IMG/VR virus record: IMGVR_UViG_3300035698_015796 | Coordinates: 1-20,830 of that record | Source of the DNA: a virus | Reading direction: 5' to 3' (one strand) | Length of the DNA stretch: 20,830 bases | In this document: positions 5,386-18,694 of the stretch, piece after piece | How positions within the stretch are numbered: the first letter of the stretch is position 1 | Layout of the letters: the number at the start of each line of letters is the position of its first letter | Notes under the pieces: generated by a model | The model's database searches: none | What the model saw: only the letters and a program-made list of their open reading frames with translations | What the model was told of the DNA's origin: nothing | Program-made: the position numbers and the translations under genes

Positions 5386-5499
5386 TTTAAACCTCACTTA
5401 ATTATGATGCTGGATCCAGCTCTTATGAGCCACTTCTCCGCTAAACCCTGAACGGGAACTTGGATCAGCAGACCCAGCATAGATAAGTTTTTAACAAGT
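5386..5499 (-). other. Gap between capsid and fibre-like genes with an inverted repeat
   Basis: No supported gene. Minus-strand RNA contains ATGCTGG early and CCAGCAT later (7 bp, the second inside the palindrome GCTGGATCCAGC), plus a small GCTC-ATAA-GAGC hairpin. There is no T tract, so termination is not supported. The +1 frame relative to the capsid gene is open across the whole gap and closes at 5394-5396. Confidence 0.5.
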
Positions 5500-6507
5500 T
5501 TAGCCTGCGTAAGTTGAACCATCGCCCTTTGAACCGGCGATACCCATAAATCCACGTGCACCCACTTGATAGTTGTCTTCTGCACCGACGAACATTTCGC
5601 CTGTGTCATCATCTTCCCAATTCTTTGTTTGAATCCCTTCTAGGACGTCAAACTGAAGATTTCTTTTGGCCCACATAGGATCCATCAAGAAATAATTGGA
5701 ATCCCAATAGTTACTTGCAGAACTCTGTGCGACACTAGTCCAGCCCTGATTGTAGGCAAAGACCCATGACATGTAAGGATTCAAGATGATATCAAGACCA
5801 TGCTTACCCTTGAAGTAGTTCAAGTTATTATCGGTTGTATCGGGTTCTTTCTCAACTTCTGCAAGTTGGAAAGCAATCTCTCTCAGTTTTGGGGGAACCA
5901 TCAGAATCAGGTTACCCATTCCAACTAGTTGAGGAATGCCCTTGTTATTAACCAACGGGAGGAAAGAATCTTGGAGAAGGATAAGATTATCATAATCCAA
6001 AGCTCTCTGGACACCGTCACTAAAGGTGTTGGATTGGTTACCACCACCATCTTTGCGAGCGTGAGTCGTGGAAATCAATTCCTGACTATCACCCCAAAGA
6101 GTAGAACCGTCGTATGCTTTAGCGAAAACTTCACCAACGGAGTGGATGTCGCGAGCTTGCTTCATTTTCATGGCAAGATCTTTGGCATAGTTACCGATTG
6201 TGTTGTTACCGCTTTGGTCTACTAGCTTCAGCAACTTGCTAAGAGAAGCTTTTCTCTTATAAGTTTTTGGAGCAAAGACCGTTGTGTAACCTTCTTGAGC
6301 TGTATCCTCTGGATGGATAGCATTCTCTGCTACCTCTTCGGGATAATCAAAGTAAGCTTGTGTGCTGTACTTTGTGCTTAGTTGGCTAGTACTTCCCACT
6401 GAAAAGAGGCGAGTGAAAAACGATTCATGCAAATCAAGATTTTCCTGCACGATTTCTTCGAAATCGAGAGCCACTGATTTGGTTTGGTTGCCTGTTGTAT
6501 TACCCAT
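5500..6507 (-). CDS. Major capsid protein, HK97-like fold
   Basis: A 335-aa protein with ATG 6507 behind AAGGAG and a 7-nt spacer. The sequence matches the Mu/HK97-like capsid pattern. An N-terminal helix (DFEEIVQENLDLHESFFTRLF) leads to P-domain-like text (KASLSKLLKLVDQSGNNTIGNYAKDLAMKMK). The segment LISTTHARKDGGGNQSN is the 'T.H...GG..Q.N' loop typical of these capsids. It is followed by GNLILMVPPKLREIAFQLAEVEKEPDTTDNNLNYFKG and the substrate-like YFLMDPMWAKRNLQFDVLEG. The C-terminus has GAEDNYQVGARGFMGIAGSKGDG. It forms the icosahedral shell. No N-terminal protease-cleaved delta domain is obvious, and scaffolding is supplied separately by the gene at 7121-7975. The call is confident from motif pattern and context. 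Confidence 0.9.
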   Translation of the reverse strand: MGNTTGNQTKSVALDFEEIVQENLDLHESFFTRLFSVGSTSQLSTKYSTQAYFDYPEEVAENAIHPEDTAQEGYTTVFAPKTYKRKASLSKLLKLVDQSGNNTIGNYAKDLAMKMKQARDIHSVGEVFAKAYDGSTLWGDSQELISTTHARKDGGGNQSNTFSDGVQRALDYDNLILLQDSFLPLVNNKGIPQLVGMGNLILMVPPKLREIAFQLAEVEKEPDTTDNNLNYFKGKHGLDIILNPYMSWVFAYNQGWTSVAQSSASNYWDSNYFLMDPMWAKRNLQFDVLEGIQTKNWEDDDTGEMFVGAEDNYQVGARGFMGIAGSKGDGSTYAG

Positions 6508-8402: not shown

Positions 8403-8431
8403 ATTATACCACACATTTGTTAGTTTGTCAA
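8403..8431 (-). promoter_or_regulatory. Near-perfect sigma-70 promoter with extended -10
   Basis: Minus-strand TTGACA (8426-8431), 17-nt spacer, TATAAT (8403-8408), with TGG just before the -10 hexamer. The start point would be about 20 nt upstream of ATG 8381. The spacer AACTAACAAATGTGTGG is nearly the same as in the promoters at 15731 and 16710. Confidence 0.92.
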
Positions 8432-11855: not shown

Positions 11856-14372
11856 TTAATAGCCTGTATATGAATTGCGGACTCTAGGTTTCTTCCTAAC
11901 GATTTGCACACCACCTTGAACATCGGGTTCTGAGATAGCAAAAAATTCTAAACTTGTACGGAAATGGGAATTGTGTAAAACTACTCCCTCTGCAACAAAG
12001 TTATGGTTTTCTGGTACCTCAATGTCGTACACATCATGCAACCCAGGCACTTCTCTGATACCTGTTACTTTGTGATTATATCTATTTATATCATTAAGGG
12101 TTGTCTTTCTCCCAGCCCGTAGCGCTTTCTGATATTCAATATTAAATGCGGAAGTTCTTTCTCTTGCACACTTATCGGAACAAGTTCTGCTCCTTTTGTA
12201 TCCTTGATACTCTTTCCCACACCAAGTACATTGTTTCTTGTACGCGTTCTTATTAAAATCAGCCACATATTTTCTAGCCCTATCAGCTTGCCTCTTGCAC
12301 TCAGCAGAACAATAAATCCTTCGATAGTCCATTAATGTTTCTTTCCCACAGATTGGGCACTTCTTAAAAACCGATTTCTTGCTAATGGTTTCCTGTCTCT
12401 TCTTCTGTGAATCTCTAGTCAAACCTCTCCAACTAGTGGTTTCCCTACAATGGTCGGCGATAGAAAGCTCCTCTAAATTATCCAGTCGATTGTCAGACTT
12501 AATTCCGTTCTTGTGATGGATATGGAAACCCTCTCTCAAAACCCCTTTCAATCTAGAAAACACATAACGGTGCTCAGTAGCAATACTTCCATCATTTAAA
12601 TGAACACGATTGTGTTTGCCTTGGTTCAACGTCTCATAAAATGGCATAAGACTATCAAACTTAACTAAATCCTGTGCCTCTTTGTATTCCCCATCTCTTA
12701 ACATGAAACGGTGATCTGGAGTGCATCTTATAGATTCACCATTATCCAAAACTACCTCTATTAGTTTACGATTTACCCCCGACTTCCAACATTTGCCAGC
12801 CTTACTCGGAACTAGTCTCTGTTCGTCAAAGGAATAACTCCAAACGTAAAAATCTTTTCCAACCAAATCAGAAATTTTATGCCATCCGTTTAATGTTCTT
12901 ACTTTAGTATCCGCGTGCAGACAACTGCTATCATGCACTGGTAACCTAGCCTCTGTCGTTGCCTGTGATGTCTCTGACCTCTCCGGGTAACGAGCGTTGT
13001 ACATGCAGTCAATTAAGTACTGACACTTGGTCTCATTCACATGTAAACGTCTCATCAATAACTTAGCCCTATCCCTACGCTCAGACCAAGTACTCTTCGT
13101 ATCAAAATTGAGGATGATCCCAACTTCATTTAGCTGTTGCTCAACCGTTGTCTCTGCAGCTTGATGCAACTGTCTGGCGGAAACGTCTCCGTAATGGACA
13201 GCTCCTTTCCATTCTCGGTGCTCTTGGATCTTTAACAAATCAGCAGCGGTGTAAAAGTAATCCTTGCTACTTAAAACTAGACCAGTAACAAGCGGTGCAA
13301 AGAAGTCAGCCATCTTCCCGCTATTGGAATAGCTATCAATTATATAAACCATGTCGTTACGGAAATCCTTCTGCCACCAAATCAAAGCCGTGTCATCGTT
13401 CCGGCCAAAGTCCCAGCTTACATATAATGGTATCTTTGGGTTGTACTCGAAACTGCCAAATTCAACATTGCCCCATTCTGGGTAAACCGCACCAGTAACA
13501 GACGTCTGATAACTAATGTCGATCTCACGCGCGATCTCATCGTCGGTCATCCGCGTCTTCTGCAGAGCGTACCACTCGTCATCCTTTAACGGGTGCTGTC
13601 TCCAGTGCATCGTCAGAACATCAATCTTCCCTTCCTTGCGTAGCCGGCTGGAAAAGTGCATCATCCCGTGCTTAGACGGTGTTGTCGTTACGAGTCGGCA
13701 TGGTGAGCTTTGGGAACAAGCTTGCCACGCCTGACGAGCGAACTGCCAGCTTCCGAACTCGTCTATATAAACAGCCGAATAACGTCCTTGTCTACCGAAG
13801 TCAGCGTTAGCTGATTCCCCTTTAATAAACGATCCGTTGTTCGGGTTGTTGATACCTAAGAAATTTCTGTGTACTTTTGGCTCATACTTGCCCAAGAAAA
13901 ACCTGGGCTGATGCCGCAAAATATAATCAATCCTCAACATTAACGGGTCTAAATCCTCACCCGTTCTGCTACCGTCAACCAAGCTCTCCTTACGAGATCC
14001 GATTAAAGCAGCAAAGTTCTTTTCAAATAACCAGCGCCAAGTCAACCAGTGCAAAGCCAACCAAGTGGCTCCCATGTCCCGGCTCTTCTCTATAAATAGA
14101 TCCTTCTGAATCGTGTAGTGCTCATCAAACTTCTTGATCCCCTTCTCCTGAAACTCGTATAGCAAAAACGGAATCTCCTTCTGCCCAGTTGGTAGCCGTG
14201 GGTCAAACGTGTAGCCAAAATTGTTACACCAAAAGGCGAAGTCCCTACGGCAACGCTCATATAAAGCAGAGACAAACGTCTTGCTCTTATGCTTGCCGGA
14301 CTCCAGCTTCTCCAATAACTCTTTCCTAACAGCGAAGTTCTTCCGCTGGTGAGGTGTTACTTGATATTGCAT
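11856..14372 (-). CDS. terL: Large terminase subunit (ATPase and nuclease) containing an intein
   Basis: An 838-aa precursor; 520 aa after predicted splicing, a normal TerL length. ATPase domain: Walker A variant EKSRDMGATW (~95-104), Walker B VYIDE (~201-205), coupling motif TTTPSKHG (~229-236). Nuclease domain: VSWDFGRNDD (Asp321) and VYIIDSY (Asp346). The third motif region, VHDSS|SHFRTSLEFFA, is where the intein (484-801) interrupts it. It cuts concatemers and drives DNA into the procapsid through the portal. The usual 'DA' after SHxx in motif III is replaced by TS, so the third metal ligand may be Asp481 instead. ATG 14372 follows an AGGG that overlaps the TAG of the upstream gene. Splicing is needed to rebuild the nuclease site. 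Confidence 0.92.
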   Translation of the reverse strand: MQYQVTPHQRKNFAVRKELLEKLESGKHKSKTFVSALYERCRRDFAFWCNNFGYTFDPRLPTGQKEIPFLLYEFQEKGIKKFDEHYTIQKDLFIEKSRDMGATWLALHWLTWRWLFEKNFAALIGSRKESLVDGSRTGEDLDPLMLRIDYILRHQPRFFLGKYEPKVHRNFLGINNPNNGSFIKGESANADFGRQGRYSAVYIDEFGSWQFARQAWQACSQSSPCRLVTTTPSKHGMMHFSSRLRKEGKIDVLTMHWRQHPLKDDEWYALQKTRMTDDEIAREIDISYQTSVTGAVYPEWGNVEFGSFEYNPKIPLYVSWDFGRNDDTALIWWQKDFRNDMVYIIDSYSNSGKMADFFAPLVTGLVLSSKDYFYTAADLLKIQEHREWKGAVHYGDVSARQLHQAAETTVEQQLNEVGIILNFDTKSTWSERRDRAKLLMRRLHVNETKCQYLIDCMYNARYPERSETSQATTEARLPVHDSSCLHADTKVRTLNGWHKISDLVGKDFYVWSYSFDEQRLVPSKAGKCWKSGVNRKLIEVVLDNGESIRCTPDHRFMLRDGEYKEAQDLVKFDSLMPFYETLNQGKHNRVHLNDGSIATEHRYVFSRLKGVLREGFHIHHKNGIKSDNRLDNLEELSIADHCRETTSWRGLTRDSQKKRQETISKKSVFKKCPICGKETLMDYRRIYCSAECKRQADRARKYVADFNKNAYKKQCTWCGKEYQGYKRSRTCSDKCARERTSAFNIEYQKALRAGRKTTLNDINRYNHKVTGIREVPGLHDVYDIEVPENHNFVAEGVVLHNSHFRTSLEFFAISEPDVQGGVQIVRKKPRVRNSYTGY
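11970..12923 (-). mobile_element. Intein with HNH homing endonuclease inside TerL
   Basis: Residues 484-801 of the TerL precursor, 318 aa. The N-terminal block A is C484-LHADTKVRTLNG. Block B is GESIRCTPDHRF with the TxxH motif (Thr551, His554). The C-terminal blocks are VYDIEVPENHNFVAEG and VVLH800-N801, followed by Ser802 as the +1 nucleophile, so all splicing residues are present. The insert carries an HNH-type nuclease (HIHHKNGIKSDNRLDNLEEL...H, ~617-641). It then has two Cys4 modules of identical spacing, C-x2-C-x12-C-x3-C, at 672-692 and 715-735. These are probable zinc fingers for target recognition. It interrupts the nuclease motif III region of TerL. It should be an active self-splicing, mobile intein unless a defect is hidden. 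Confidence 0.92.
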
Positions 14373-15402: not shown

Positions 15403-15427
15403 TCATTATCCCCTGTAAGGTATAAAC

Positions 15428-15724
15428 TGGTGGAGTCGGTGGGTTCTGCCCCCACGTCTCTAAGTTACCCAGAAGGTGGTGGCTTAGATCGAAACTATAA
15501 CGCGACCCCTAACTATACATAGTTACTGAAATAAACCCTCAAGTCAGCCTCTTAATTAAGCTGAGTTCAGGTAGTTCGATATAAGCGAACCGGCTCTGCT
15601 TACGTGAATCCTTGAACCAAGCAAAGACCAGTGTGTTACCGGCCATCAGGCTGACATTAACCCTTAGTTATCGCTACCTAAGTAACGGCTAAAAGGCTCA
15701 CCTGAGAGTTTATTTGTCCCCTTC
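15428..15724 (-). ncRNA. Structured ~300-nt RNA/leader ahead of the packaging operon
   Basis: Read on the minus strand from the promoter at 15731-15759. A 14-15-bp helix joins 15715-15701 with 15543-15529, closing a ~190-nt domain. Inside it lie a helix 15655-15648/15550-15543 (8 bp) and a bulged hairpin 15692-15687/15662-15657 plus 15682-15678/15667-15663. There are further hairpins 15644-15638/15632-15626, 15625-15619/15601-15595 and 15591-15586/15578-15573. Outside are TAACTA-TGTA-TAGTTA (15525-15510), TCTAAG/CTTAGA (15488-15459) and GTGGG/CCCAC with a 7-nt loop (15455-15439), followed by CGACTCC-ACCA. Nearly all imperfect pairs are G-U only in minus-strand RNA. It carries no good ORF. It resembles a tmRNA 3' end superficially, but the T loop and 5' half do not fit. 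It could be a regulatory leader or a packaging-type RNA. Confidence 0.7.
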
Positions 15725-15730
15725 ACTATC

Positions 15731-15759
15731 ATTATACCACATGTTTGTCAGTTTGTCAA
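15731..15759 (-). promoter_or_regulatory. Consensus sigma-70 promoter for the structured leader and packaging operon
   Basis: Minus-strand TTGACA (15754-15759), 17-nt spacer, TATAAT (15731-15736), TGG before the -10. Transcription should begin near 15724, just before GGGGAC. The spacer is almost the same as in the promoters at 8403 and 16710. Confidence 0.92.
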
Positions 15760-15770
15760 ATTTTTCGTTG

Positions 15771-16093
15771 ATCTAATTGCAACTCTTAATTCTAGACACA
15801 CCGCGGCCTACCCCCACAGTCTGTACTTCGAGGCTACTTTAATCCTATTTACTATACTATTATTGTTCTGTAATACCTATTATGATCCAGTCTAGAAATC
15901 ATAACATTATCACTGGCAGTTGCCTTTCGCCCTGGCATCGGTGCCCCTTCTGATACTTTTAGTGTACTTGTCTGTGGTCGCTAGTTGACGCCGCTGGGTC
16001 AGAGCTAGTCTTGTGTATCAGCTGCAAGGTTTGTTTATAGTGGTGTCCCCTTGAAAAACACTCATAGTAATAGATTGTCGCGTCCTATTTATC
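15771..16093 (-). other. Gap between accessory operon and leader promoter
   Basis: About 320 bp with no long ORF. On the minus strand there is an SD-led 28-codon ORF (15852-15938). A CTAG/CTAG plus TGAC/GTCA hairpin spans 15981-16008, and an 8-bp pair joins 15897-15890 with 15797-15790 (TTCTAGAC/GTCTAGAA). None is followed by a clear T tract, so I see no certain terminator for the upstream operon. Confidence 0.5.
15852..15938 (-). CDS. Possible 28-aa small ORF
   Basis: ATG 15938 stands 5-6 nt behind AGGGG and opens 28 codons, starting MPGRKATASDNVMISRL, with TAG at 15852-15854. The support is a good SD and a gap otherwise lacking a gene. It starts with MP like the three preceding genes but lacks their Trp-Leu tail. 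Treat it as tentative; it may be chance within a structured transcript. Confidence 0.3.
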   Translation of the reverse strand: MPGRKATASDNVMISRLDHNRYYRTIIV

Positions 16094-16375
16094 TTAATTA
16101 TCTTGGTTAAGCCACTCACTTAAATGTATTATCTTAGTTATTTCATGCAAATCAGGATAGTCTTTGATAAAGTCAACTAGCTGTGCAAAGTCTGGACCCG
16201 TGACCCAACGGCCATCTGGTAAAAAGACCCGGAACCGATTGTTGGCTGCGAGACCAAAATCGGTATACGGGTACACGTAACCGTCAATCTCTATCTCCTT
16301 ATACGGGTACGAGGTACCGTCAATCTCTATCTCGTTATACGGGTACGAGATCGCGAGACCTAAAGTGTTTGGCAT
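16094..16375 (-). CDS. Small protein with a 12-residue repeat and a HLxxWL tail
   Basis: A 93-aa protein with ATG 16375. Its SD (GGAGGAGG) is formed by the last Leu-Glu-Glu-Asp codons of the upstream gene. Residues ~11-42 consist of two full copies and one partial copy of a 12-aa unit, YPYxEIEIDGxx. Next comes a strand-rich segment with FRVFLPDGRWVTGPDFAQLVDFI. The end is IIHLSEWLNQDN, matching the ends of the genes at 16377 and 16727. Function is unknown. The repeated YPY...IEIDG strands suggest a small beta-solenoid or a beta-sheet stack. It is the last gene of the accessory operon. Confidence 0.65.
   Translation of the reverse strand: MPNTLGLAISYPYNEIEIDGTSYPYKEIEIDGYVYPYTDFGLAANNRFRVFLPDGRWVTGPDFAQLVDFIKDYPDLHEITKIIHLSEWLNQDN
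16264..16346 (-). repeat. 36-bp tandem repeat inside the 93-aa gene
   Basis: The 11-mer TATACGGGTAC occurs at 16264, 16300 and 16336, exactly 36 bp apart, with CAATCTCTATCTC shared between units. The unit is 12 codons, so changes in copy number keep the frame. Confidence 0.9.
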
Positions 16376-16376
16376 C

Positions 16377-16688
16377 TTAGTCCTCCTCCAACCAATTACT
16401 CAAATGGAGAACTTCTTCCGGTTGACACTTAGGCGCAGACCCAATCTCTGCCGGCATATCTAGACGGTTATTGTACCTTTGTTGGCTGATAGCAGCTCCA
16501 AAGCTAGCAGTAGCATCTTCTAGTGTCTGCGTTGGGGGGGGAGGAGAATAATAAAACAGTCTACGTAACCGCTCAATCTTATCGGCTATATCCGTTAGCC
16601 GATAAGTATTTGTGGTGTCGTCTCCAATCATTTCCTCTATCTCAGCGATAGTCCGTTCCAGTCTCCTAGCACGTTCTTGATTTGGCAT
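16377..16688 (-). CDS. Small coiled-coil protein with a HLxxWL tail
   Basis: A 103-aa protein with ATG 16688 behind GAGGGG; it is the first gene after the promoter at 16710-16738. It is helical at the N-terminus (ERARRLERTIAEIEEMIGDD; RLTDIADKIERLRRLFYY), then a PPPP linker encoded by an 8-bp homopolymer (16536-16543), then a loosely ordered part. It ends in EEVLHLSNWLEED, related to the ends of its neighbours. Function is unknown. The homopolymer run makes this gene prone to frame slippage. The codons for the acidic tail double as the SD of the next gene. Confidence 0.65.
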   Translation of the reverse strand: MPNQERARRLERTIAEIEEMIGDDTTNTYRLTDIADKIERLRRLFYYSPPPPTQTLEDATASFGAAISQQRYNNRLDMPAEIGSAPKCQPEEVLHLSNWLEED

Positions 16689-16709
16689 TTTATTTGCCCC
16701 TCTATAATC

Positions 16710-16738
16710 ATTATACTACACATTTCTTAGTTTGTCAA
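16710..16738 (-). promoter_or_regulatory. Consensus sigma-70 promoter inside the end of a frameshifted gene
   Basis: Minus-strand TTGACA (16733-16738), 17-nt spacer, TATAAT (16710-16715). It is the third of the near-identical promoters. The -35 overlaps the last codons (Asp-Leu-Thr-Asn) of the 16727-16871 reading frame. It drives the 103-aa and 93-aa genes. Confidence 0.9.
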
Positions 16739-16871
16739 GTCTTTTTCTAACCATTCCCGTAAGTGAAGTACCGCAACGTCTTCGGTCTCTTCCAAGGGGC
16801 AACGGGAATAGTAATTCCAGAGTAATACGGCAATCTTCTGCACTGCTAAGTGGATTTATGTCAGTTGGCAT
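16727..16871 (-). pseudogene. Frameshifted small gene with a HLxxWL tail
   Basis: ATG 16871 (sharing one base with the upstream TAA) reads MPTDINPLSSAED and then a poorly protein-like sequence. The +1 frame, open after a TAA near 16854, reads AVQKIAVLLWNYY...VAVLHLREWLEKDLTN to TAA at 16727-16729. Joining the frames by skipping one base near 16844-16849 gives a 47-aa protein whose end matches HLSNWLEED and HLSEWLNQD of the next two genes. An SD (GGAGAG, within the upstream Gly-Glu codons) serves the ATG. It is either a one-base insertion, a sequencing error or programmed frameshifting. Without the shift the ATG frame would give 51 aa ending at 16716. Confidence 0.65.
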
Positions 16872-17083
16872 TAGAGCCACTCTCCTAAAGTTGTATAGTC
16901 GATGGTAACCTTTCCGTTTAAAGAGAGCTCGATCTCCTTGTAAAAGTTTACGCTTCCTTCAGCGTTTCTTACCTCGTAAGGGTAGCCGCAGCGTGGGTAG
17001 ATGAAAGTTACCGTGCAGAGTTGGCCCTTCAGGGAGGTACAAGACAAACAACTCACTACTACCTTGTCTCCAACCTTGATCAT
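16871..17083 (-). CDS. Small SH3/KOW-like protein with a C-terminal EWL tail (array member 5)
   Basis: 70 aa. The start is the ATG that overlaps the previous stop (ATGA, 17083), 5 nt behind GAGGAG, rather than the in-frame ATG 6 nt upstream, which is too close to the SD. It reads MIKVGDKVVVSC..., then GQLCTVTFIYPRCGYPYEVRN and VNFYKEIEL, ending in TTLGEWL. The xVGDxVxV opening and short strands fit a KOW/SH3-like barrel. It has four Cys, more than its paralogues. It is the last intact member of the five-gene array. Function is unknown. Confidence 0.65.
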   Translation of the reverse strand: MIKVGDKVVVSCLSCTSLKGQLCTVTFIYPRCGYPYEVRNAEGSVNFYKEIELSLNGKVTIDYTTLGEWL

Positions 17084-17391
17084 AGCCACTCCTCTAAAGT
17101 TAGATAGTTGCTCTTGAAAGGTTCTATCCCCGCAATATCAGGAAAGAACTTTGCCATGCCAGGGTTACATTGAACTAAAACTTTGATCTGGCTGTTGGAA
17201 AATTGAGTAATCCGGTCCTTGCCCGTTTGGATGTCCCTGATATTACAAGCAAAGGAGTTGTCCAAGAAGCCTCCTTCTAGCCTTATGAGCAGGGAGAGGG
17301 TAGCAGCGGTGGTGCCTATCCGGTTCACCCTGCCAATTAGTAAATCAAAGCTTGCCCAGATAATGGAAACGTAATCTCCAACTGCTATCAT
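17080..17391 (-). CDS. Small SH3/KOW-like protein with a C-terminal EEWL tail (array member 4)
   Basis: 103 aa from ATG 17391 (overlap ATGA with the upstream TGA, SD GAGGAG with a 5-nt spacer). The opening is MIAVGDYVSIIWASFDLLIGRVNRI, which aligns with the other members. A longer middle segment carries FACNIRDIQTGKDRITQFSNSQIKVLVQ, and it ends in NYLTLEEWL. It is the longest member and the most diverged. The shared ends point to duplication followed by divergence. Function is unknown; such small barrels often bind nucleic acid or protein. Confidence 0.65.
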   Translation of the reverse strand: MIAVGDYVSIIWASFDLLIGRVNRIGTTAATLSLLIRLEGGFLDNSFACNIRDIQTGKDRITQFSNSQIKVLVQCNPGMAKFFPDIAGIEPFKSNYLTLEEWL

Positions 17392-17603
17392 AGCCACTCC
17401 TCTAGTAATTGGTAATTGGGTTTGAAAGGTGAGCGCTTTTCGTGTACCGAAATTAGCGCATGCTCATATTGAACAGTCTCTTTGCTGTTACAGTCAAGCT
17501 GTACGCAGTAAAAGGTGAAGGTACCGTGATAGCCATGACTTGTAATGTTGCCAAGTAAATTGTTTCTCTCTACCCGTATCCTGTCGCCAACTTTGAATCT
17601 CAT
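17388..17603 (-). CDS. Small SH3/KOW-like protein with a C-terminal EEWL tail (array member 3)
   Basis: 71 aa from ATG 17603, which overlaps the upstream TGA. The SD GGAG is embedded in the preceding Leu-Gly-Ala codons, 7 nt away. It begins MRFKVGDRIRVERNNLLGNITSHG, then TFTFYCVQLDCNSKETVQYEHALISVHE, and ends in NYQLLEEWL. The GDRIRV...GNI core is the KOW-like turn shared with members 1 and 2. The tail codons GAG-GAG-TGG-CTA-TGA provide the SD and overlapping start for member 4. Confidence 0.7.
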   Translation of the reverse strand: MRFKVGDRIRVERNNLLGNITSHGYHGTFTFYCVQLDCNSKETVQYEHALISVHEKRSPFKPNYQLLEEWL

Positions 17604-17797
17604 AACCATGCTCCTAGTAACGTGTAACCGATCTCTGGATATTCAATGAGTTCTAAGCAGCAAGTTGCTATGAGACGGACTCCTAATTTACCGTCAAAGG
17701 TGCAAAGATCCGTGCCACAATTGTTGAATGAATTAGCGATATGACCTGTTTCCCCAGTTGATTTTACCCGTACTTGGTCACCAGCTTGAAATATCAT
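17600..17797 (-). CDS. Small SH3/KOW-like protein with a C-terminal GAWL tail (array member 2)
   Basis: 65 aa from ATG 17797 (overlap ATGA; SD GAGG 7 nt upstream). An in-frame ATG at 17803 is only one base past the SD and is rejected. It reads MIFQAGDQVRVKSTGETGHIANSF, then CTFDGKLGVRLIATCCLELIEYPEIG, and ends in YTLLGAWL. The GDQVRVK.TG..G segment is nearly identical to that of member 1, so these two are the most recent duplicates. Function is unknown. Confidence 0.7.
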   Translation of the reverse strand: MIFQAGDQVRVKSTGETGHIANSFNNCGTDLCTFDGKLGVRLIATCCLELIEYPEIGYTLLGAWL

Positions 17798-18000
17798 AAC
17801 CATGCCTCTAGCAACGTGTAACCGATCTTGATTGGGGTCGGAAGGGGTTCGAGTTCCTCGGCATAATGATAGTGATAGGTCCGAGGTTGTGGAAGAAAAA
17901 CTACAAAATAAACTTGATAGGTACGTGTCACAATACTATAAACACTTCCTTCGTTGCCGGTTACCTTTACCCGTACTTGGTCACCAATTTGAAATCTCAT
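17794..18000 (-). CDS. Small SH3/KOW-like protein with a C-terminal EAWL tail (array member 1)
   Basis: 68 aa from ATG 18000. The sequence is MRFQIGDQVRVKVTGNEGSVYSIV, then YQVYFVVFLPQPR, YHYAEELEPLP and IGYTLLEAWL. The pattern xxGDxVRVxxxGxxGxVxxI ... Y.V.F ... EELEPL is the classic arrangement of a small KOW/SH3-like barrel. It is the first gene after the promoter at 18033-18062. Unlike its followers it has no visible SD (leader ATTAAAAACAAACA), so initiation differs for the operon leader gene. The tail codons carry GAGG for member 2. No enzyme motif is present; it is likely a small binding protein such as an early host-takeover or anti-defence factor, an inference from small size, array structure and position. 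Confidence 0.7.
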   Translation of the reverse strand: MRFQIGDQVRVKVTGNEGSVYSIVTRTYQVYFVVFLPQPRTYHYHYAEELEPLPTPIKIGYTLLEAWL

Positions 18001-18032
18001 TGTTTGTTTTTAATTGAAACTTGGTCACTCTC

Positions 18033-18062
18033 AATATAACATAGCAGATCGCCCCCTGTCAA
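18033..18062 (-). promoter_or_regulatory. Promoter of the five-gene small-protein array
   Basis: Minus-strand TTGACA (18057-18062), 18-nt spacer, TATATT (18033-18038), preceded by TGT (extended -10). It is a different sequence from the other three promoters apart from the hexamers, so timing may differ. Confidence 0.75.
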
Positions 18063-18319
18063 CAGACCCTTTTAAAAATGTATGTAATTATATTCCCTAG
18101 TGTTTTCAGGGAAAGGCACCCCCCTTCTAGGGAAACCGTTGACCAGACATGAACTTGGTATACGGGGGGTACGCAGAAAAGCCGCCACCTCTTTTGGGGT
18201 GGTGGGGTACCGGTGGCGCTTGACTAGTGCCAAGTGACCATCCCAGGCATCAATATACCCGTCAACTTTTGATATCATCCGCGAAACGGCTACACATAGC
18301 CATTTCATGGGGTATAGCA

Positions 18320-18349
18320 AACGTCGCACAATATGCATTTTGCGACGTT
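18320..18349. promoter_or_regulatory. 9-bp inverted repeat, candidate operator
   Basis: AACGTCGCA and TGCGACGTT are perfect inverted arms separated by 12 nt, with no T tract on either side. A third TGCGACnTT copy occurs at 18410-18418. The spacing and repetition suit a dimeric DNA-binding protein better than a terminator. Confidence 0.5.
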
Positions 18350-18384
18350 CGGATCACCTTTGACCTGTTTAGTTGACTTGGATC

Positions 18385-18405
18385 GTATACTGGGGGGGAG
18401 TATGC
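18385..18405. repeat. Hairpin with a seven-G loop and related upstream copy
   Basis: GTATACT and AGTATGC pair (one G-U) around a run of seven G. A similar element, TATAC-GGGGGG-TACGCA, lies at 18159-18175, and both are preceded by ACTTGG. The two diverged copies may be binding sites or parts of an origin. Confidence 0.5.
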
Positions 18406-18632
18406 AAAGTGCGACTTTTAGATTGGTTCGGCGCGGGATGATCTAGGCGCTAAATGCAATATTGTTGCAATTAGCTTATGACAGTCTAGCCTCGACAAAT
18501 ACCAGTATCTGCCACTAATAGCAGTTAAACTATACATTAATATATACGCGCGTGTACGTGTGAACCGTTGCCCACAACCACAACCGGCTAACCGTGTCAA
18601 GCCCCAAATGATGGCTTCGGATAGCCAAAAGG

Positions 18633-18662
18633 TATACATGGCCGTTAATTATGTGCTATACT
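18633..18662 (+). promoter_or_regulatory. Probable promoter for the rightward genes
   Basis: TATACA (18633-18638), 18-nt spacer, TATACT (18657-18662) with TGC directly before it (extended -10). The predicted start is about 27 nt before the first ATG at 18697. Confidence 0.6.
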
Positions 18663-18673
18663 CTAGGTGTCCA

Positions 18674-18694
18674 ATTAATTAAACGAGTACCCGC
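18674..18694 (+). repeat. Repeated early-gene leader, copy 1
   Basis: This 21-bp stretch with TTAATTAAACGAGTACC is identical to 19952-19972. Both copies directly precede the two paralogous QRHS genes. Looser versions (ATTAAACAGGTAC) precede the genes at 19464 and 19650. Confidence 0.8.

Follow-up and report, generated by a model that had tools for sequence, protein, structure and literature searches.

Tandem small phage proteins with a common C-terminal LxxWL tail: a putative docking motif beside probable translational coupling signals

The nin region of phage lambda contains a chain of small genes with ATGA overlaps and alike junction sequences, as does the array described here. We know of no report of the nin genes as paralogues with a common C-terminal LxxWL tail, which distinguishes them from the array. 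In Cluster K mycobacteriophages, Start-Associated Sequences (SAS), a repeated AGGAG-containing sequence, are found just before the starts of many unrelated small genes (PMC3203893). The SAS is a defined 13-bp element placed before starts, whereas the element of the array lies within the last codons of the preceding gene, and its DNA varies, with residues kept where the DNA is not. The fixed 13-bp element, GGGATAGGAGCCC, is absent from the array junctions, and the common part is only an AGGAG/GGAG-type Shine-Dalgarno (SD) sequence whose flanks differ. In termination-reinitiation coupling, the stop and start codons overlap as ATGA or TGATG, and the SD motif is located inside the upstream gene (PMC6728339). 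The junctions J1-J4 of the array match this geometry; the cited study covers gene pairs generally and no shared protein tail. The sequence-only reading of this DNA could name no phage system with this arrangement, and a literature search for tandem small phage proteins with a shared tail returned nothing relevant.

The window, i.e., the whole stretch of DNA analysed, is a virus record of 20,830 bases, which is possibly a fragment. The array comprises eight consecutive open reading frames (g1-g8) on the minus strand, running from 18000 to 16094, with a divergent plus-strand gene cluster on one side and packaging and structural genes on the other. All array features below are on the minus strand. 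The five KOW/Tudor-like genes g1-g5 come first, beginning with g1 (17794..18000, 68 aa, tail GYTLLEAWL), g2 (17600..17797, 65 aa, tail GYTLLGAWL), and g3 (17388..17603, 71 aa, tail NYQLLEEWL). They are followed by g4 (17080..17391, 103 aa, tail NYLTLEEWL) and g5 (16871..17083, 70 aa, tail DYTTLGEWL, with a TAA stop). Each of the five has its ATG at the higher coordinate given, and its stop codon ends at the lower one. A GDxVxV-type core at the start of all five, as proposed earlier, is indeed present, in the form GDxIRV in g3, GDxVSI in g4, and GDxVVV in g5. In the alignment, the residues G6, D7, and G18 are invariant in all five proteins.

The array proteins gave no matches over the curated cut-offs of Pfam and NCBIfam, and PHROGs returned unnamed families only, the best at 8.6e-6. 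A profile compared with the PDB had the KOW domains of SPT5 and uL24 as its top matches, all of them weak. From five sequences, AlphaFold2 modelled g1 with low confidence (pLDDT 54) as a small barrel of five strands followed by a short C-terminal helix. The structures closest to this model are the Tudor domain of PcrA/UvrD, MutS2, and NusG-type KOW domains, and these matches are also weak (E ~0.1). The GDxVxV core is a feature that g1-g5 have in common with the SH3-like KOW/Tudor domains of UvrD/PcrA, NusG, uL24, and MutS2, and the small beta barrel predicted at low confidence would be another. Membership of g1-g5 in this fold class is likely, although the class is not diagnostic of a function. 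Unlike those domains, the array proteins stand alone, are very divergent, and carry an extra conserved C-terminal tail.

The genes g1-g5 are joined by four junctions of one type: J1 (17765..17828, SD GAGG), J2 (17571..17634, SD GGAG), J3 (17375..17430, SD GAGGAG), and J4 (17067..17122, SD GAGGAG). In each, the TGA stop of one gene overlaps the ATG of the next as ATGA. The ends of g1-g4 read GAGGCATGGTTATGA, GGAGCATGGTTATGA, or GAGGAGTGGCTATGA, i.e., an SD, a short spacer, and ATGA. The SD (GAGG/GGAG) lies within the tail of the upstream gene, where it encodes the [EG][EA] residues, and the last A and the stop of g1-g4 are set by ATGA. From this arrangement, translational coupling of g1-g5 is highly probable. 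The fifth junction, J5 (16869..16905), follows the same tail but has a TAATG overlap, an SD GGAG whose distance from the start is 10 nt, compared with 5-7 nt elsewhere, and a non-KOW gene downstream.

All five proteins end exactly at the stop in EAWL, GAWL, EEWL, EEWL, and GEWL, as had been read from the sequence. The invariant tail is longer than was then given and corresponds to Y-x-x-L-x-x-W-L. Among the 341 stop-to-stop reading frames of at least 30 aa in the window, only the eight of the array have LxxWL in the final 14 residues, and none of 1,247 frames of at least 100 aa from other fetched phage loci has it. Shuffling of each protein gave a chance of p ~0.001-0.018 per gene for LxxWL in the last 14 residues; since the genes are not independent of one another, the product of these values would exaggerate the significance. 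The sample consists of eight tails in two groups, which are unlike outside LxxWL, and the helical moments of the tails are modest (0.20-0.38). A C-terminal degradation tag was considered as a common role and rejected, as the tails of the second group end in D or N rather than Leu. Binding to the beta-clamp was also discarded; the QLxLF-type motif known for it is missing from most tails.

The second group, g6-g8, has bodies other than those of g1-g5, and in it three to six residues follow WL. The tails HLREWLEKD, HLSNWLEED, and HLSEWLNQD, reported earlier for the frames ending at 16727, 16377, and 16094, are all present, but only HLSNWLEED is exactly terminal; HLREWLEKD is followed by LTN and HLSEWLNQD by N. 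The g6 tail frame (16727..16843, ...VLHLREWLEKDLTN) has no good start. The coupled ATG at 16871, with an SD GGAG, opens another frame, MPTDINPLSS... (16716..16871, 51 aa, codon scores weak), relative to which the tail frame is +1. The frame ending at 16727 is probably a frameshifted gene, in which the coupled frame would be the 5' portion of g6 ahead of the shift. The shift could stem from an indel of 1 nt near CCCC, from an error in sequencing, or from +1 frameshifting. The gene g7 (16377..16688, 103 aa) ends in VLHLSNWLEED and carries the SD for g8, GGAGGAGG, after WL. The gene g8 (16094..16375, 93 aa) contains three 12-residue repeats of 36 nt each, ends in IIHLSEWLNQDN, and has no coupled gene downstream of it. 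These tandem repeats, at 16257-16346, encode a YPY-x-EIEIDG-like unit.

Relatives of the array were sought widely. No DNA-level relatives were found among phages, and searches of viral contigs with TerS, the five-gene alignment, the junction pattern, and the tail pattern found none. Three contigs contain TerL relatives of ~40% identity; they end near the position corresponding to the array, and no array was seen in them. The tblastn searches with g1, g4, g7, g8, and the tail alone gave only chance-level matches. In these phage and viral-contig searches, neither homologues of the array proteins nor a homologous array appeared. Viral and genome contigs also contained tandem pairs of TGGYTATGA, but nearly all were out of frame and were rejected as chance occurrences. 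One of them, the locus L104 from another phage, is a partial analogue. At 1620-1945 it has tandem small Cys-containing paralogues after alike LR[ED]WEWL-ATGA DNA, and the DNA upstream of the second paralogue is alike yet out of frame with the preceding gene.

Part of the tail in g1-g4 is dictated by the RNA signal, and the sequence-only reading had already raised the possibility that the signal alone is selected. The tail would then be a ribosome-binding site plus an overlap for termination-reinitiation, its [EG][EA]WL would be incidental, and duplication would have copied the initiation region. The SD and ATGA common to J1-J4 agree with such an origin, as does the tandem paralogue of L104, which keeps its upstream DNA although the preceding gene is no longer in frame. 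In a scan of viral contigs for GAGGAGTGGYTATGA, 92 stretches were found, mostly in-frame ends of unrelated frames with another frame next, and 47 of 71 distinct cases had frames on both sides. Since GAGGAGTGGYTATGA closes many unrelated phage genes, EEWL-stop by itself is ordinary. The upstream residues, however, fall outside the signal: Leu at -5 is found in 5/5 of g1-g5 and in 1/61 unrelated GAGGAGTGGYTATGA junctions, and Tyr at -8 in 5/5 and 2/61, respectively. The distance from the SD to the start varies, whereas that from WL to the stop is constant in g1-g5. The gene g5 retains YTTLGEWL at its stop despite the TAA, the TAATG overlap, the changed SD spacing, and a non-paralogous neighbour. 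No tail-like DNA occurs upstream of the g1 start; together with g5, this indicates that the tail is linked to the gene carrying it rather than to the initiation region downstream. The tails of g6-g8 lie in different RNA contexts: the final codons of g6 overlap the -35 box of the promoter upstream of g7-g8, g7 has an SD after WL, and g8 has nothing. They share 16/24 residue identities and, among identical residues, 3/13 identical codons where 3.9 are expected from codon usage, so residues are kept while synonymous codons are randomised, which argues against selection on RNA only. The same residues are carried by unrelated bodies without codon conservation in this group only. An RNA signal without a protein motif leaves the Leu and Tyr, g5, and the HLxxWLxxD tails unaccounted for, and it appears quite unlikely as the whole explanation. 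Conservation of LxxWL at the protein level, which these observations support, is probable.

Gene ends could also be short homology blocks for exchange of bodies or conversion of ends, with the tail as a by-product, and boundary sequences in mosaic phages have been proposed as recombination sites. J1 and J2 are indeed 64-nt DNA repeats with 81% identity, and J3 and J4 are 56-nt repeats with 75% identity. Over the first 12 codons and the last 10, g1 and g2 are ~90% identical (z ~11), whereas the bodies align barely above shuffles (z 1.5), and the tails share 5/6 identical codons against 1.8 expected. Because neighbouring ends are near-identical as DNA and the bodies are not, recombination or homogenisation has contributed. 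The earlier suggestion of a recombination relic is therefore favoured for neighbouring KOW pairs, with ends homogenised as DNA, but not for the tails of g6-g8, which share residues and not codons; the looser likeness among g1-g5 is not explained either. In their bodies, g1 and g2 both retain TGxxG, a feature of the fold, but encode it with different codons; they therefore resemble old homologues with recently homogenised ends and look diverged rather than swapped. Recombination as the main cause of the tail is thus considered unlikely, to the same degree as a purely structural function, where LxxWL is the final element of a small fold packing on its own core and the likeness of the HL and KOW tails is coincidental. 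The g1 model places the tail as a strand and short helix beside the barrel, KIIHL forms a strand of the domain in the g8 model, and the dissimilarity of the two tail groups outside LxxWL fits such a function. These models are nevertheless of low confidence (pLDDT ~54-55); in that of g8, WL falls in low-confidence coil, and its quality does not allow the tail to be positioned. The chance frequencies of LxxWL given above and the same tail on the unrelated bodies of g7 and g8 also argue against a purely structural tail.

The reading preferred here is that the array consists of duplicated, coupled small SH3-like proteins with a C-terminal motif acting at the protein level and putatively docking on a common partner; it may well apply, with a likelihood a little short of even. 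An operon of small phage proteins would have grown as a KOW/Tudor (SH3-like) gene was duplicated in tandem. Terminating ribosomes probably re-initiate on the next gene at the SD and ATGA overlap, judging from the junction sequences. Over this RNA signal, the proteins would retain a short amphipathic C-terminal element, (Y/V/I)xxLxxWL, which would travel with its own gene and also close two or three following genes of unrelated body. The tail may form a C-terminal helix docking on a common partner, e.g., a host factor or another member of the array. As the best single reading of the LxxWL conservation, such docking is proposed tentatively. It is somewhat doubtful that a single amphipathic LxxWL docking peptide, attached to two or more unrelated families of tiny proteins, delivers many different bodies to the same host target or scaffold while its DNA doubles as the next ribosome-binding site. 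Should the tail prove to be a docking module, the phage would be sorting many fast-changing proteins to one target via a shared handle, with which that target could be isolated. Even without docking, the array provides a clean case of one DNA stretch under three constraints, i.e., a protein end, a ribosome-binding site, and recombination homology.

Several other features of the window were observed. One frame at 5394-5480 (minus strand), after the reading frame 5500-6507, reads ...VQGLAEKWLIRAGSSIIIK and has a faint likeness to the tail, which may be due to chance. An intein that carries an HNH endonuclease splits the large terminase gene (11856-14372, minus strand). Convincing minus-strand genes are lacking over a long stretch on either flank of the array (15403-16093 and 18001-18690), and an Rfam search of these stretches gave no RNA family match. 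A sigma-70-like promoter, TTGACA-18-TATATT with 11/12 matching positions, is located upstream of the array (18033..18062, minus strand), and g7-g8 are preceded by a promoter, TTGACA-17-TATAAT, that matches the sigma-70 consensus perfectly (16710..16738, minus strand). A scan for the promoter pattern returned matches only in contigs without homologues of the window. One promoter, TTGACAAACTNANAAANNTGTNGTATAAT, is present in three copies on the minus strand, at 8403-8431, 15731-15759, and 16710-16738, and the likeness of the copies extends well past the -35 and -10 boxes. Those at 15731 and 16710 sit within 57-nt repeats of 74% identity.
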